From: Bacteroidaceae bacterium
GTDB taxonomy: Bacteria > Bacteroidota > Bacteroidia > Bacteroidales > Bacteroidaceae
Assembly (NCBI GenBank): GCA_017557635.1
Contig: JAFYYH010000013.1
Coordinates: forward strand, 1 to 64,000
Reading direction: 5' to 3'
Length of the DNA: 64,000 bases
Shown: in pieces, positions 192 to 53,294 of the stretch
Layout: each line of letters starts with the position of its first letter
Position numbering within the stretch: position 1 is the first letter of the stretch
The notes under the pieces: model-generated
The model's input: the letters and a program-made list of their open reading frames with translations, nothing else
Database searches by the model: none
Told to the model about the DNA's origin: nothing
Translations under genes and position numbers: made by a program

Positions 192-1402
192 TTCAATGAT
201 AGGAATATCTTGGTGAATTCTGTGCCCTCAATGTTGCCGTAGCCGCCCTGCTTGCAAGACTCCTCATCAAAGGCGGTAACGCTGTCAGCCTCCATTCCAG
301 GGGCATAGATAAGGAACGGAATAGGGTCCGATGTGTGCGTGCGGTGTGCGCAGGGCGTAGGATGGTCAGGCAGCACGGCAATTGCCACCGGCTCGTCCCA
401 TTTGCTTACCTCCTCATAGATAGGACCTATCAGGCGGCTGTCCAGATCCTCGACAGTGCGGTTCTTAAGGGTAAAGTTACCCTCGTGACCGGCCTCATCG
501 GGGGCCTCAACATGCACATATACAAAGTCATCGGTCTTAAGGGCATCGATGGCAGCCTGTGCCTTGCCCTCATAATTGGTATCAAACAGGCCTGTTGCAC
601 CCTCCACATCAATAACCTTCATGCCGGCGTAGTGACCTATTCCCTTGATAAGGTCCACGGCCGATATCACCGAACTCTTGCGTACATTGGGGTAGAGTTC
701 GTTTAAGGGCTGCATTGACGGACGGTAACCGGGTGACCAGGGCCAGATGCTGTTGGCGGGGTCCTTACCCTCGGCAACACGCTTCAGGTTAACGGGATGC
801 TTGGACAGTATCTCCTGCGAGCGCAGTATAAGGTCGTTCAAAAGGTCGGCTGTAGGCTGGGCATCGGGAGTGGCAGCCTTGATCATGAGGTCACGGAACG
901 GCTGTCCCGGTACATCATGAGGCGGAGTGCAGATAAGCTCCTTGCGGCCGCCGTCTATAACCAGCAGATGGCGGTACTGGATTCCGGTATGGAAATGCAC
1001 TTTATCAGTGCCCAGTTCCTTGTCAAGAGCCTTGATAAGCTCATCGGCCTCAGGGGTTGTTATATGACCGGCTGAGTGGTTCTTGATAATACCGTCCTGG
1101 ATGCAGATGATGTTGCAGCGCATACCCATCTGTCCGGGTTTTATGTCAACGCCTATGTTGGCGGCCTCAAGTACGCCTCGGCCCTCGAATGACTTGGTAA
1201 CGTCATAGCCCATGACGGTCATGTTGGCCACCTCACTGCCGGGGTGGAAACCGTCAGGCACGGTTTTGAGCATACCTGTGCGACCCTTGCGCGCAAGCAT
1301 GTCCATGTAGGGCTTGCGGGCATTCTGGAGTATGGTCTTACCGCCAAACTCCTTGACAGGCCAGTCGGCCATTCCGTCGCCCAGGATGATTATGTACTTC
1401 AT
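188..1402 (-). CDS. ApgM-type phosphoglycerate mutase-like protein, probable homoserine kinase
   Basis: 404 residues. The start MKYIIILGDGMADWP is preferred; an upstream in-frame start at 1438 would overlap the end of thrA. The protein is of the alkaline-phosphatase superfamily, cofactor-independent phosphoglycerate mutase (ApgM) branch: metal-site segments GDGMADW near the N-terminus, EAPDEAGHEGN in the middle and PDHPTPCAHRTHTSDP near the C-terminus. A subgroup of this family found between thrA and thrC in Bacteroidetes is proposed to replace ThrB as homoserine kinase. Here it sits exactly between thrA and thrC and no GHMP-type thrB is seen, which supports that role by context. Phosphoglycerate mutase activity cannot be excluded from sequence alone. 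Confidence 0.85.
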   Translation of the reverse strand: MKYIIILGDGMADWPVKEFGGKTILQNARKPYMDMLARKGRTGMLKTVPDGFHPGSEVANMTVMGYDVTKSFEGRGVLEAANIGVDIKPGQMGMRCNIICIQDGIIKNHSAGHITTPEADELIKALDKELGTDKVHFHTGIQYRHLLVIDGGRKELICTPPHDVPGQPFRDLMIKAATPDAQPTADLLNDLILRSQEILSKHPVNLKRVAEGKDPANSIWPWSPGYRPSMQPLNELYPNVRKSSVISAVDLIKGIGHYAGMKVIDVEGATGLFDTNYEGKAQAAIDALKTDDFVYVHVEAPDEAGHEGNFTLKNRTVEDLDSRLIGPIYEEVSKWDEPVAIAVLPDHPTPCAHRTHTSDPIPFLIYAPGMEADSVTAFDEESCKQGGYGNIEGTEFTKIFLSLK

Positions 1403-1424
1403 GTTATCTGGAAAAGGATTAGAA

Positions 1425-3851
1425 TCAAATGTTTGCAATACTCATGATATCGGCAAATACACCGGCAGCAGTAACTGCGGCGCCTGCTCCGTAACCCTGA
1501 ATCATCATAGGATACTCCTTGTAACGCTCGGTTGTAAGCAGGATTATGTTGTTGCTGCCCTGCAGGTTGTAGAACGGATGGTACTTGTTGACCTCGGCCA
1601 GCGCGATGCTTGCCTTGCCGTTCTCAAGACGTGCCACAAAGCGCATACGCTTGCCCTCCTTCTCTACACGGGCGCGGCGCTGCTCAAAGTCGGCATCCAG
1701 CTTGGGCAACTTCTTCCAAAACTGATCAATCGTGCCGTCAAACAGCTCCTGCGGGATAAAGAGTGAGCACTCAACATCCTTCTGCTCAATGGCGTAACCG
1801 CTCTCACGGGCCAGGATGACCAGCTTGCGCAGAACATCCTTACCGCTCAGGTCGATACGTGGATCGGGCTCGCTGTAACCCTTTTCCTTGGCCAGTCGGA
1901 TGGTCTGGCTCAGAGTGCAGTCAGCGCTCAGTGTGCTGAATATGAAGTTCAGGGTACCGCTTACCACAGCCTCGATCCTGAGGATGCGGTCACCGCTGTT
2001 GATCAGGTCATTGATGGTGTTGATTACCGGCAGGCCTGCGCCCACGTTGGTCTCAAACAGGAACTTGACACCGCGGCGGCGGGCAATCTTCTTGAGTTCT
2101 ATGTATTTCTCATACTCCGATGAAGCCGCAATCTTGTTTGCAGCCACAACTGATATGTTATGATCCAGGAAATCCTTGTACAGTCCGGCAACATCGGCAC
2201 TTGCGGTGCAATCCACAAATACTGAGTTGAAGATGTTCATGCCTATGACCTCGTCATGCAGAGTCTTGATGTTGCTTGCGGGAGCCTTCTCCAACTGCTC
2301 GCGGTAGGTATCCAGGTCAATTCCCTCACGGCAGAACATTGCCTTGCTGCCGCGTGCTATACCAACCACGTTCAGTTTGAGGCCGCGCTCCTGCATCAGT
2401 TTCTCGCGCTGTCCGCGTATCTGCTCCAGCAGGCTGCTTCCTACGGTGCCCACACCGCAGATGAACAGGTTCAGAACCTGATACTCTGACAGGAAGAACG
2501 AGTCGTGGATTACGTTGAGTGACTTGCGCAGTGAACTCTTCTGTACAACGAATGATATATTGGTCTCAGATGCACCCTGAGCGCAGGCAATCACGTTGAT
2601 ACCGTTTCGGCCCAGAACACTGAACAGCTTACCGGCAATACCGGGGCTGCGTTTCATGTTCTCACCAACGATAGCAACAGTTGCCAGATCCATCTCGGCC
2701 GATATGGGGAAGATGGCACCCAGCGCAATCTCCTTGCTGAACTCCTGGTTCAGGAGCTCACATGCGGGAGCGGCATCCTCATTACGTACACCGATTGATG
2801 TACTGTTCTCGGACGATGCCTGAGACACCATGAACACGCTGATACCGTTCTCGGCCAGCGTCTTGAATATGCGGTAGTTCACACCGATAACGCCCACCAT
2901 ACCAAGACCGCGCATGGTGATAAGTGCGGTGTCGCCTATGCTGGATATACCCTTGATGGCCTTTGTTCCGGCGGGGAGTTCGTTCACGATCTCGGTGCCG
3001 CGGGCCGTGGGGTTGAAGGTGTTCTTTATCAGAATGGGGATGTTCTTCTGGCAGACCGGATAGATGGTAGGCGGATAAACCACCTTTGCGCCGAAGTTGC
3101 AGAGCTCCATTGCCTCCACGTAACTCAGCTCATCAATGGTGTATGCGGTCGAGATCACGCGGGGATCGGCCGTCATGAATCCGTCCACATCGGTCCAGAT
3201 TTCCAGGACATCGGCATCCAGAGCAGCCGCAATCAGTGATGCGGTGTAGTCCGATCCGCCTCGGCCCAGGTTTGTGACCTCACCCGTCTGGGCATCGGAC
3301 GAAATGAATCCGGGTGCCAGACCCTTGTGGGGCATATCCTTGAATGTCTCGCGGATGAGTTTGTATGTAAGGTCGCTGTCTATTGCGTGGTTATGGGCGT
3401 TGTGCTCGGTCTTTATGAATTCGCGTGAGTCATAGAGCTTGATGTCATCTATGAGCTGAGCCACAATCTGTGATGAAAGGCGCTCGCCGTAGCTGACAAT
3501 GGTATCCATGGTCTTCTCTGACAGGTCGTGAAGCAGGTACAGACCCTGCATGATCTCCTTGAGCTCGCCAAAGAGCTTGCGCACCTGATTGTACGCTTTG
3601 CGGCGGCGCTCCGGAACAATCACGTCACGTATCATATCCTCGTGACGGGTCAGCATGGCCTCGGTCTCAGCCTCATACTGACGCTCACCCTTGGCAGCCA
3701 TCCTGGCTGTGGAAATAAGCTTGTCAGTAATTCCGCCAAGGGCAGAAACCACTACTATCACATCATCCTGCTGTGACTCAACAATCTGCTTAAGGTTGGT
3801 GATGCTCTCCTTTGATCCAACGGACGAGCCACCGAATTTTAATACTTTCAC
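1425..3851 (-). CDS. thrA: Bifunctional aspartokinase / homoserine dehydrogenase
   Basis: 808 residues from a GTG start reading (M)KVLKFGGSSVGS, the canonical aspartokinase N-terminus. A longer ATG frame begins at 3911, but the -7 promoter box (3875-3882) lies inside that extension, so the GTG start is chosen. Domain order: aspartokinase catalytic domain (about 1-290, with GRGGSDYTA), two ACT-type regulatory domains (about 310-450, ENSTSIGVR and QGASETNISFVV), then homoserine dehydrogenase (CGVGTVGSSL Rossmann motif, VVSGTLNFIF and DLSGKDVLRK). It catalyses the first and third steps from aspartate to threonine. First gene of thrA-apgM-thrC. No leader peptide or attenuator could be recognised. 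Confidence 0.95.
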   Translation of the reverse strand: MKVLKFGGSSVGSKESITNLKQIVESQQDDVIVVVSALGGITDKLISTARMAAKGERQYEAETEAMLTRHEDMIRDVIVPERRRKAYNQVRKLFGELKEIMQGLYLLHDLSEKTMDTIVSYGERLSSQIVAQLIDDIKLYDSREFIKTEHNAHNHAIDSDLTYKLIRETFKDMPHKGLAPGFISSDAQTGEVTNLGRGGSDYTASLIAAALDADVLEIWTDVDGFMTADPRVISTAYTIDELSYVEAMELCNFGAKVVYPPTIYPVCQKNIPILIKNTFNPTARGTEIVNELPAGTKAIKGISSIGDTALITMRGLGMVGVIGVNYRIFKTLAENGISVFMVSQASSENSTSIGVRNEDAAPACELLNQEFSKEIALGAIFPISAEMDLATVAIVGENMKRSPGIAGKLFSVLGRNGINVIACAQGASETNISFVVQKSSLRKSLNVIHDSFFLSEYQVLNLFICGVGTVGSSLLEQIRGQREKLMQERGLKLNVVGIARGSKAMFCREGIDLDTYREQLEKAPASNIKTLHDEVIGMNIFNSVFVDCTASADVAGLYKDFLDHNISVVAANKIAASSEYEKYIELKKIARRRGVKFLFETNVGAGLPVINTINDLINSGDRILRIEAVVSGTLNFIFSTLSADCTLSQTIRLAKEKGYSEPDPRIDLSGKDVLRKLVILARESGYAIEQKDVECSLFIPQELFDGTIDQFWKKLPKLDADFEQRRARVEKEGKRMRFVARLENGKASIALAEVNKYHPFYNLQGSNNIILLTTERYKEYPMMIQGYGAGAAVTAAGVFADIMSIANI

Positions 3852-12517: not shown

Positions 12518-12716
12518 GCAATAGAGAACTTTTTGGGGTATCGGTATCAGAAACCATAGACGCCCATGTCTCTGTGAATGGGAGGGGCCCGTGCTCAAGA
12601 AGATGCTCTGGGAGATGGGAACTTGTTCACGTCTTTCAGAGCGTCTTATTGAGGATGGGAGGGATAGCGCGAAGCGCGTAGTTTAGGATACTGATACCCC
12701 AAAAAGTCTCTATTGC
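12518..12716 (+). other. Structured non-coding element, copy 1 (candidate RNA)
   Basis: Outer stem: 12518-12550 pairs with 12691-12716 (about 25 bp with a small bulge and a six-base duplication GGTATC). Inside, in order: hairpin AGAC-GCCCAT-GTCT (12558-12571), motif TGGGAGGGGCCCG (12579-12591), long hairpin with CTCAA/TTGAG and AGATGCTCTG/CAGAGCGTCT stems capped by GGAACTTGTTCA (12618-12629), motif TGGGAGGG (12656-12663), then a small GCGC hairpin. The same layout and spacing occur at 52828-52998 with different stem sequences. G-U pairs favour the plus strand. The right end is two bases from the trmB stop codon. Function unknown. Confidence 0.75.
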
Positions 12717-12717
12717 G

Positions 12718-13476
12718 CTATTTCCCAACTTGCAGAGTACTCCTCTTAGTTCGCCCGTAACTTCTATAATCGTCAAGCTCGATCTCGATATCGGGTTCCG
12801 ATAATTCACCATCGGCCGGAAGATTGAAGACGATATACTTGATGCTCTTGCCCCGCTCCAGCCACTGCTGCTCATAGTGCGTCTTGATGGAGAGGATGTG
12901 GTCCGCATCACCGCTGGCGTAGAGGTCATCGGTCCTGAACTCCACCGGCAGACGGTTATGATCAACCATAGCACAAGTATAGGTAAACAGAAAGTTGCTG
13001 TCAGTCTTAAGATGAATCTTACCGCCCGGCTTAAGTATCTTACGATACCGCTCCATAAACCAGGTCGATGTAAGACGCTTGGTAGCCTTCTTCATCTGAG
13101 GATCCGGGAAAGTGATCCAGATCTCGCTCACCTCACCAGGAGCAAAGAACCGGTCAATAAGCTCAATGACGGTACGCAGGAACGCCACATTTGTCATGCC
13201 GGCCTCAAGCGACTGCTTGGCACCGGTCCACATACGCGCACCCTTGATATCGACCCCAATAAAGTTCTTATCAGGAAACAGCCCGGCCAGCCCCACGGTA
13301 TACTCACCGTGACCGCAGCCCAGCTCCAGAACAATAGGCCCGTCATTATGAAAGAAGGAGCTGTTCCAACAGCCCCTCATTTCAAACGGGACATCCTCAC
13401 GGAACGAGCCCTGCGGCTCGAACACGTGCGGATAAGTCCGCATATCGGCAAACTTGGCCAGTTTACCCTTACCCAT
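12718..13476 (-). CDS. trmB: tRNA (guanine-N7)-methyltransferase
   Basis: 252 residues. SAM-binding motif [28 protein letters not shown], and the TrmB signature [20 protein letters not shown]. It forms m7G46 in tRNA. ilvE lies two bases upstream on the same strand, so the pair is probably one transcript. The stop codon is next to the structured element. Confidence 0.95.
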
Positions 13477-52809: not shown

Positions 52810-52827
52810 AAAAGATTCCCAGTGAGC

Positions 52828-52998
52828 GGAAATAGAGGGATAGTACCCTCAGGGACTCTCGCACCCACGCGAGACTAGTGGGAGGGGCCCGCGACAGGTT
52901 GTAGCTATTCTGGAACTAGGAACTTGTTCATAGTTTCGGAATAGATACAAGATGTTGTGGGAGGGCATTGTCCCAGAGGGTACTATCCCTCTATTTCC
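52828..52998 (+). other. Structured non-coding element, copy 2 (candidate RNA)
   Basis: Outer stem 52828-52856 with 52970-52998, 28 of 29 paired. Inside: hairpin TCTCGC-ACCCAC-GCGAGA (52857-52874), TGGGAGGGGCCCG (52879-52891), a long hairpin with CGACA/TGTTG, TTGTA/TACAA and CTATTCTGGAACTA/TAGTTTCGGAATAG stems capped by GGAACTTGTTCA (52919-52930), then TGGGAGGG (52958-52965). Motif spacings match copy 1 to within one base while stems differ. G-U pairs favour the plus strand. Right end is two bases from the stop of the PG0541-like gene. Confidence 0.8.
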
Positions 52999-53000
52999 CC

Positions 53001-53294
53001 TTAAATACTCTTTTCGATATTCCAGACGAATGCACGCAGGCCGAGTTTCTCGGTAGCAACGTCCATTGCGTGGAGTTTCTCCAGGATAATGTCGACCTTG
53101 TCGTCATCGACCATGGTGATGATGCCCGAGCACATAGACGGCCACGCGTGATTGCCGTAGTGAGGCTCACCAGTCTTGGAGCCCCTGCCCTGCAACTGCT
53201 CCACCATGGAGAATCCGCGGCAGTTGTTAGTTGTGAGCAGGTCGATTATACGCTCGGTATAAGACTGGTCAAAAGTTATCAGTATTGATTTCAT
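53001..53294 (-). CDS. PG0541-like small PII-fold protein next to an RND pump
   Basis: 97 residues, MKSILITFDQSYTERIIDLL onward, with the short alternating beta-alpha pattern of PII/DUF190-like proteins. Matches the small protein found beside RND efflux genes in Bacteroidetes (PG0541 type). Last gene of the efflux operon, 12 bases after the permease. Role unknown; regulation of the pump is a guess from context. Confidence 0.75.
   Translation of the reverse strand: MKSILITFDQSYTERIIDLLTTNNCRGFSMVEQLQGRGSKTGEPHYGNHAWPSMCSGIITMVDDDKVDIILEKLHAMDVATEKLGLRAFVWNIEKSI

Follow-up and report, generated by a model that had tools for sequence, protein, structure and literature searches.

Two structured elements in the window, the whole 64,000-nucleotide stretch of Bacteroidaceae bacterium DNA analysed here, belong to a dispersed family of palindromic repeats that is mobile: its presence varies at orthologous positions, near-identical copies occur at unrelated loci, and copies are found within genes. 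The explanation that we favour, with moderate confidence, is a non-autonomous mobile palindromic element of ~75–220 bp that is similar to the Rickettsia palindromic elements (RPEs) and acts as a folded single plus strand of DNA. The two window copies span positions 12518–12716 (copy 1) and 52825–53001 (copy 2) and comprise the following parts.

Copy 1, 12518..12554, plus strand: left arm of the outer stem, ending with the inner-stem AAAC (33 Watson-Crick pairs when aligned locally with the right arm).
Copy 1, 12555..12574, plus strand: hairpin Pa, loop GCCCAT at 12562-12567 (from the sequence; the stem covaries in the family).
Copy 1, 12563..12582, plus strand: predicted pseudoknot helix, CCCAT at 12563-12567 with ATGGG at 12578-12582 (family covariation, pairs 4 and 5).
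Copy 1, 12588..12659, plus strand: hairpin P2, CCCG...TGGG, long form with tip GGAACTTGTTCA.
Copy 1, 12660..12663, plus strand: conserved, unpaired AGGG 3′ of P2 (invariant in alignments A2 and A3).
Copy 1, 12667..12677, plus strand: optional hairpin Pc, GCGC-GAA-GCGC (from the sequence; loop class counted).
Copy 1, 12681..12716, plus strand: right arm of the outer stem (arm alignment).
Copy 2, 52825..52856, plus strand: left arm of the outer stem (arm alignment).
Copy 2, 52858..52873, plus strand: hairpin Pa, loop ACCCAC at 52863-52868 (from the sequence).
Copy 2, 52864..52882, plus strand: predicted pseudoknot helix, CCCAC at 52864-52868 with GTGGG at 52878-52882 (family covariation).
Copy 2, 52888..52961, plus strand: hairpin P2, CCCG...TGGG, long form.
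Copy 2, 52962..52965, plus strand: conserved, unpaired AGGG (invariant in the alignments).
Copy 2, 52970..53001, plus strand: right arm of the outer stem (arm alignment).

The outer arms are almost perfect inverted repeats in both copies, and their sequence differs between copy 1 and copy 2. Two minus-strand genes flank copy 1, one for a pyridoxal-phosphate enzyme (PF00291) and one for a TrmB-like methyltransferase (PF02390); the right arm of copy 1 stops just before the reverse-strand stop codon of the latter (12718-13476, minus). Copy 2 has as neighbours a ThiL-like plus-strand gene (AIRS domain) and an ORF on the minus strand with no Pfam match at 1e-5. The initial annotation had described pieces shared by the two copies in the same order, with steps of 39 and 38 bases in copy 1 and 40 and 39 in copy 2, and the motif starts bear this out: the NCCCAN loop, TGGGAGGGGCCCG, GGAACTTGTTCA and TGGGAGGG begin at 12562, 12579, 12618 and 12656 in copy 1 and at 52863, 52879, 52919 and 52958 in copy 2. 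As RNA, both copies fold far more stably than shuffled sequences, with z-scores of -11.75 for copy 1 and -10.64 for copy 2 and no shuffle as good among 200 in either case. The G-U pairs reported in the long hairpin (at least three in copy 1, two in copy 2) are present in P2 of both, where folding gives 5 and 4, above the earlier counts.

The annotation had matched the elements to no known RNA class, and this agrees with the Rfam search, in which only tRNA reached gathering scores in the window. At both copies there were only matches far below gathering, on which ground we rejected a known Rfam class. The sigma-70 consensus is not known to cover Bacteroidota promoters; a scan with this consensus, which may not fit promoters of the phylum, found no promoter-like site around either copy. 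A terminator scan near the copies, which reads loops of 3–8 bases and is blind to the outer stem, found unrelated sites.

The elements are members of a large family, and the search for further copies by covariance model that the annotation had proposed returned many. The 13-mer TGGGAGGGGCCCG occurs 11 times in the genome of origin, against none for the reversed control. A covariance model built from 30 copies (R1) gave 18 near-full-length matches in this genome, as well as three weak antisense matches. Because four of the 18 lie at contig starts, we put the number at 16–18 copies, which is a lower bound, as 150 of the 422 candidates were scored. A looser pattern matched 22 of the 37 genomes of the genus (with four reversed-control matches in all and at least five forward matches that are not elements: two in L033 and one each in L037, L078 and L093), and 70 distinct copies were retained as the genus set. 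Across the order, the core pattern matched five genomes in five genera among 393 genomes of 207 genera, own genome included, with no match for the reversed control; the covariance model, with eight candidates scored per genome, found the same five genomes and three weak matches (G349, G391 and G538) that we did not count. In a collection of species genomes, the core pattern had at least 120 matches in at least 119 stretches. These 120 matches, four of which are also in the genus set, constitute the wider set. The 80 titles among the matches listed all refer to Bacteroidales, Bacteroidia, Bacteroidaceae or Cryptobacteroides, and many name herbivore gut samples. An origin from plasmids, phages or viruses is not supported, with no match for copy 2 in plasmids and phages and none for the core pattern in viral contigs. 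Literature searches on palindromic, in-frame and repetitive elements of Bacteroidales or the rumen, on the core string and on structured RNA, whose scope mostly excluded subscription papers, yielded no description of the family among the matches listed.

Two further observations concern the extent of the family. Near another copy in L031, degenerate relatives at ~1640–1700 and 1340–1430 (minus strand) carry GGGGGGG or GGGTGG in place of GGGAGGGG, which suggests more distant subfamilies. Four copies of genome G354 (L112, L116, L119 and L121) have further flanking sequence in common and look like a composite repeat; on contig C58, two of the four are arranged head to head.

The mobility of the element is seen at orthologous loci of the genus. 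At the TrmB locus, for which 35 genomes were matched and 26 loci read, the element is present in G000, G155, G171, G174 and G177; G161 and G104 have a different insert within a related outer stem, and G133 has an apparent scar. At the ThiL locus (25 loci read of 36 matched), G000, G152 and G161 carry the element; it stands in the opposite orientation in G168 and G153, is reduced to GAGCGGAACTAAGTTCCCC in G157 and is missing in G175, G159 and G024, among others. A diverged CTTTRAA on both sides at this locus is a candidate target-site duplication that falls short of a clear one. A third locus (23 read of 36 matched) has seven carriers. In addition, genome G206 contains five near-identical copies with differing downstream sequence, four of them at contig ends. 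These copies (L108, L113, L349, L354 and L360) share ~85 further bases ending in a terminator-like hairpin, so that behind the element the unit looks like the end of an RNA gene. A precise empty site for a G206 copy was not found, the nearest relative found having other sequence there. Of the three options in the initial annotation, a mobile non-coding element is thus favoured by the orthologous presence and absence, the G206 copies and the intragenic copies, and its two alternatives, a 3′-end RNA and a new structured RNA, have become less favoured.

Other inserts use the same places. The different insert at the TrmB locus (L128 of G161 and L129 of G104) has its own 22-base inverted ends, GCAGAACTTTCAGTTTGGGGAG...CTCCCCAAACTGAAAGTTCTGC in G161. 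After the TrmB-like gene, in L137, L138, L144, L142 and L143, palindromic repeats of other kinds (caattggggtctgaccccttttgtatc; ggggacggttctgttcgcg) are found in the same intergenic positions and may be associated with the Y1_Tnp genes located at G000:C20 126786 and 227676. Repeats of the AATTGA type (gaattgagaattgaaaattg), found in L187, L191, L196, L162 and L164, are a further palindromic insert, which in several genomes is located at the ends of genes.

Most copies of the genus (50 of the 69 typed, many of these copies being orthologous) lie between convergent genes. We rejected a strict confinement to such sites, which holds for most copies of this one genus and does not extend to the wider set, in which 18 sites are convergent, 48 tandem and 8 divergent, and 24 fall inside predicted genes. 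These assignments were made with a codon-based gene caller, since palindromes create spurious frames and a first caller had placed 57 copies inside ORFs. Under a strict test that requires a frame open through the element and a coding signal on both sides, 18 of the 115 testable wider-set copies remain intragenic. With two from the first list added, 20 intragenic copies were examined. In ten of these, Pfam domains flank the core on both sides or span it: UvrA (L223), UvrD (L275), AtpG (L284), GreA/NUDIX (L285), SpoU (L302 and L316), PP-loop (L306), shikimate dehydrogenase/kinase (L320 and L326) and the UDP-glucose dehydrogenase family (L332). Three more match one family in two stretches (MazG in L230, PP-loop in L297 and L321), in six a domain is reported on just one side, and L249 lacks any domain. 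In alignments with chains of solved homologues, AtpG has 79 residues at the element versus 16 in the homologue and UvrA has 66 versus 6; the insertions in these two proteins are in-frame and ~60 residues long. The PP-loop and SpoU genes are hit in different species and in both orientations, as independent insertions would be.

The best-known palindromic repeats with in-frame insertions in genes are those of Rickettsia, for which neither the route of movement nor an enzyme that mobilises RPEs is known. RPEs are described as small, palindromic, multi-copy repeats, many of them in-frame in unrelated protein genes (PMC10969869, PMC3733652), with a size of ~150 bp (PMC10969869). The present family, with its 16–18 palindromic copies in one genome and its 20 open frames through the core, would by analogy work like RPEs in kind, not in lineage: it belongs to another phylum and differs in its conserved predicted pseudoknot, its G-rich core and a locus-specific stem that mirrors the flanks at some loci.

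What the copies have in common is the core. Going inwards, the outer stem comes first, followed by Pa, whose loop of six bases reads NCCCxN; after a short linker come zyGGGAGGGG, P2 (which begins with CCC and ends with GGG), AGGG, an optional Pc and the right arm. The part from the NCCCxN hairpin through zyGGGAGGGG and CCC hairpin GGG to AGGG constitutes the family core, and its sequence is kept across families both in the alignment and in the model matches. The four pieces put forward as the core by the initial annotation therefore stand as regards the NCCCxN hairpin and the G-rich strands, and GGAACTTGTTCA drops out, being the tip of one long form of P2 in place of which other copies have a short hairpin or a different tip. 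Because P2 and Pc differ in length and sequence among copies, the parts are modular. In L076 and L091, P2 is gone together with one of two GGGAGGG repeats, the pattern expected from recombination between repeats.

Covariation predicts that the core is an H-type pseudoknot in which the Pa loop forms five pairs with the downstream zyGGG. Among 103 wider-set copies, for which a Pa hairpin with at least three pairs was the sole screening criterion, pair 4 is GC in 61, AT in 21, TA in 19 and CG in 2, and pair 5 is TA in 67 and CG in 36, so that both are Watson-Crick in all 103 copies, with no mispair. This count omits 17 of the 120 wider-set matches: two cut at a contig start (L286 and L292), some with a one-base change in Pa, several in which the Pa part is replaced or interrupted (L219, L240, L296, L312, L314 and L319) and two chance-like matches (L309 and L329). 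The genus set, whose pattern admitted only A or T at pair 4, agrees with the pairing in 70 of 70 copies. Over the whole structure, 96.7% of the cells are paired in 56 aligned copies, versus 30–55% when the alignment is slid by 1–3 columns, and the covariation score is 0.41 versus a shuffled mean of 0.13. Two of the five covariation measures are not clearly above shuffles, namely both-side changes (reached by 29 of 500) and further pair types (242 of 500); L287 and L299 mispair at pair 4 in this alignment, in which their rows are shifted by one or two columns. The Pa stem covaries as well. The annotation's statement that the stems differ in sequence and nevertheless pair thus holds for the arms, the pseudoknot and Pa, and the stems are conserved as pairs, with the reservation, developed below, that a part of the outer-stem signal may be mutational. 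Energy folding of the RNA favours a plain CCCAN/NTGGG hairpin, excluding Pa, over the pseudoknot, and the two covarying helices could therefore be alternative states.

Several copies depart from this plan. In L126, L176, L312 and L314, an additional domain of very roughly 80 bases separates Pa from the pseudoknot strand. Neither the outer arms nor pair 4 of the pseudoknot match in L126, as if two copies had recombined or the assembly were chimeric.

Wobble pairs identify the strand that folds. When the outer arms are scored symmetrically, the plus strand has 49 G.T pairs versus 8 A.C in the genus set (68 copies, two duplicates dropped) and 77 versus 32 in the wider set (104 of 120 kept). After removal of the four genus-shared copies, two chance-like matches and near-duplicate arms, 97 wider-set copies give 73 versus 30 (p = 3e-5; shared ancestry makes the p-values too small). 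As their fourth P2 pair, 57 of the 120 copies have G.T, 53 have A-T and 8 have G-C; 2 have others and none has A.C. We conclude from the wobble bias and from this pair that the plus strand is the folded strand. The initial annotation's preference for a plus-strand RNA is accordingly upheld for the strand and only half shown for RNA, since the loops are of a DNA type and the element is neutral in orientation. The P2 tip is C(GNA)G in 44 of the 120 copies, with a single GNRA and a single TTCG, and the Pc region has C(GNA)G tips in 37 of 120. When one rule is applied to both groups (a stem of at least 4 Watson-Crick pairs and a loop of 3–4), C(GNA)G is found in 43 of 97 P2 hairpins versus 100 of the 8,864 hairpins in the rest of these loci, and at six pairs or more in 8 of 43 versus 7 of 689; this matched-stem control was used in place of control hairpins with stems longer than those of P2, which gave 0 of 178. 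GNA and GNNA loops closed by G-C pairs have been described as extraordinarily stable DNA mini-hairpins (PMC4686876), and the GAA triloop has been termed ultra-stable (PMC11101458). At tandem sites, the element has the same orientation as the genes in 10 cases and the opposite in 9 in the genus (19 and 29 in the wider set), and inside genes the split is 9 to 11. Local GC skew, taken as an indicator of replication, gave a weak and mixed signal relative to element orientation.

DNA-stabilising apical loops and the lack of a clear orientation bias to genes favour single-stranded DNA over RNA, and we consider that single-stranded plus-strand DNA fits at least as well as RNA; the plus-strand wobbles would equally arise from selection on RNA. 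A structured RNA family, in which the plus-strand RNA is functional, for instance as a dispersed 3′-end RNA that terminates or protects transcripts or as one that spreads by reverse transcription, is possible but doubtful. The strong covariation, the wobble bias, the very stable RNA folding of both window copies, the prevalence of convergent sites in the genus and the terminator-like hairpin at the end of the G206 unit are all consistent with it. However, the near-even orientations and the rarity of GNRA and TTCG tips speak against it, insertions into genes in both orientations are unexpected for a functional RNA gene, and the promoter scan of the window copies, weak evidence in this phylum, points the same way.

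The outer stem behaves differently from the core. Scoreable arms are present in 104 of the 120 wider-set copies, with a median of 28 bp. Among three copies in genome G384, the cores are 93–97% identical, whereas the arms are 47–61% identical (random 34-mers, 46%), and despite this divergence the two arms within each copy match each other. Likewise, three own-genome copies with both arms read (L371, L372 and L374) have cores 92–95% and arms 55–72% identical. There are counter-cases: between L371 and window copy 1, the arms are 89% and 75% identical and the cores 83%, and between L371 and L378 the right arms are 83% identical and the cores 98%. Arms, then, do not always diverge faster than cores.

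The arms can also extend into host genes. Among 67 genus copies with a scoreable stem, they extend into the left gene in 21 copies and into the right gene in 18; in 14 copies both genes are reached, and the arms run past the stop codons of the two. For 12 of these 14, the positions at which the two genes end coincide within the mirrored arms. The 14 copies correspond to about six loci, six of them being one locus in six species and some others pairs. At the third locus, the two genes have the same last codon ahead of the stop: AAT in six carriers, AAC in G174. In L045 and L053, long arms run through other palindromic repeats. Since the stems are locus-specific and can mirror the host flanks, part of the outer-stem covariation may be mutational, produced by copying from arm to arm, and we rejected the view that all of it reflects selection. 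The arms are, we infer, built or renewed at the site by copying from side to side, and selection for pairing could add to their complementarity.

These properties bear on two alternatives. MITEs, such as BrickBuilt of Porphyromonas gingivalis in the same order, are short and non-autonomous and have inverted-repeat ends. An ordinary MITE moved by a classical DDE transposase, with the outer stem as its terminal inverted repeats, would account for the small size, the inverted-repeat ends, the many copies and their presence or absence, and a left end resembling GAGC(G)GAA occurs in 25 of the 70 genus copies, 23 of which also have TTCCC on the right. We nevertheless regard it as unlikely: the ends vary even where the G384 cores are nearly identical, so that terminal repeats are not conserved among copies; there is no clear target-site duplication; and a conserved asymmetric pseudoknot is unexpected inside a MITE. 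BrickBuilt is described as strictly intergenic (PMC10969869), whereas some copies of the present family are intragenic.

Template switching is described as a process by which hairpin arms become perfect reverse complements through copying (PMC8794818), and the arms of the present element share this likeness. There it is a mutation process in RNA genes (PMC8794818); here the palindrome is a dispersed element that reaches coding ends. A purely mutational origin, in which template switching keeps functionless palindromes perfect, fits the concerted, locus-specific and flank-mirroring arms. It is very unlikely to be the whole explanation, however, because the core sequence is conserved across families, the pseudoknot pairs covary along with Pa in a way that one hairpin cannot explain, and correction between arms would tend to erase the conserved wobbles.

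A more far-reaching proposal, which we put forward only tentatively and think rather unlikely, is that a single-stranded DNA pseudoknot, and not the ends, gives the element its identity. The core would insert without inverted repeats, and host replication would mirror the flanks into a stem, rewriting the 3′ ends of the neighbouring genes. If true, convergent genes would come to share one stop codon sequence.

RAYT transposases likely recognise the single-strand fold of REPs. REP/BIME systems are among those closest to the present family. Like these, the element is palindromic and dispersed between genes, would fold as a single strand and has GGAG within its core, and Y1_Tnp genes are present in the own genome and in all six other genus carriers searched. 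In contrast, Y1_Tnp was found in none of the four carrier genomes outside the genus (96–99% complete), and the core was absent within ~1.5 kb on each side of Y1_Tnp genes at all 12 genus loci. We rejected RAYT/REP mobilisation on these grounds, and a REP-type element moved by a Y1 (RAYT) transposase is the least probable of the explanations considered here. The predicted pseudoknot is a further difference, as is size, REPs being described as 20–40 bp long (PMC3733652).

For the RPE-like element acting as folded plus-strand DNA, we propose the following model. The conserved part would be a plus-strand single-stranded fold of Pa, the five-pair pseudoknot, P2 and the G-rich AGGGG and AGGG, exposed as single-stranded DNA at replication or in a transfer intermediate. 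A putative enzyme acting in trans would recognise this fold and then copy or insert the element. The sites at which the element is observed are mostly intergenic, in one genus mostly convergent, and sometimes in-frame in genes. The long outer stem, which in the compared cases does not travel faithfully with the core, would be made or renewed at the site; most likely, template switching between the sides of the hairpin copies the flank across and keeps the arms complementary, as the mirrored arms suggest. At the 3′ ends of genes, the stem may serve as a two-way terminator.

The analysis defines a Bacteroidales family, rich in herbivore gut samples, with well over 100 copies, some of them recent, a sharply covarying core that is a target for biochemistry, and natural in-frame insertions in core genes such as UvrA, AtpG, DnaX and UvrD. 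Its locus-specific, partly mirrored stems would show how palindromes arise and persist.
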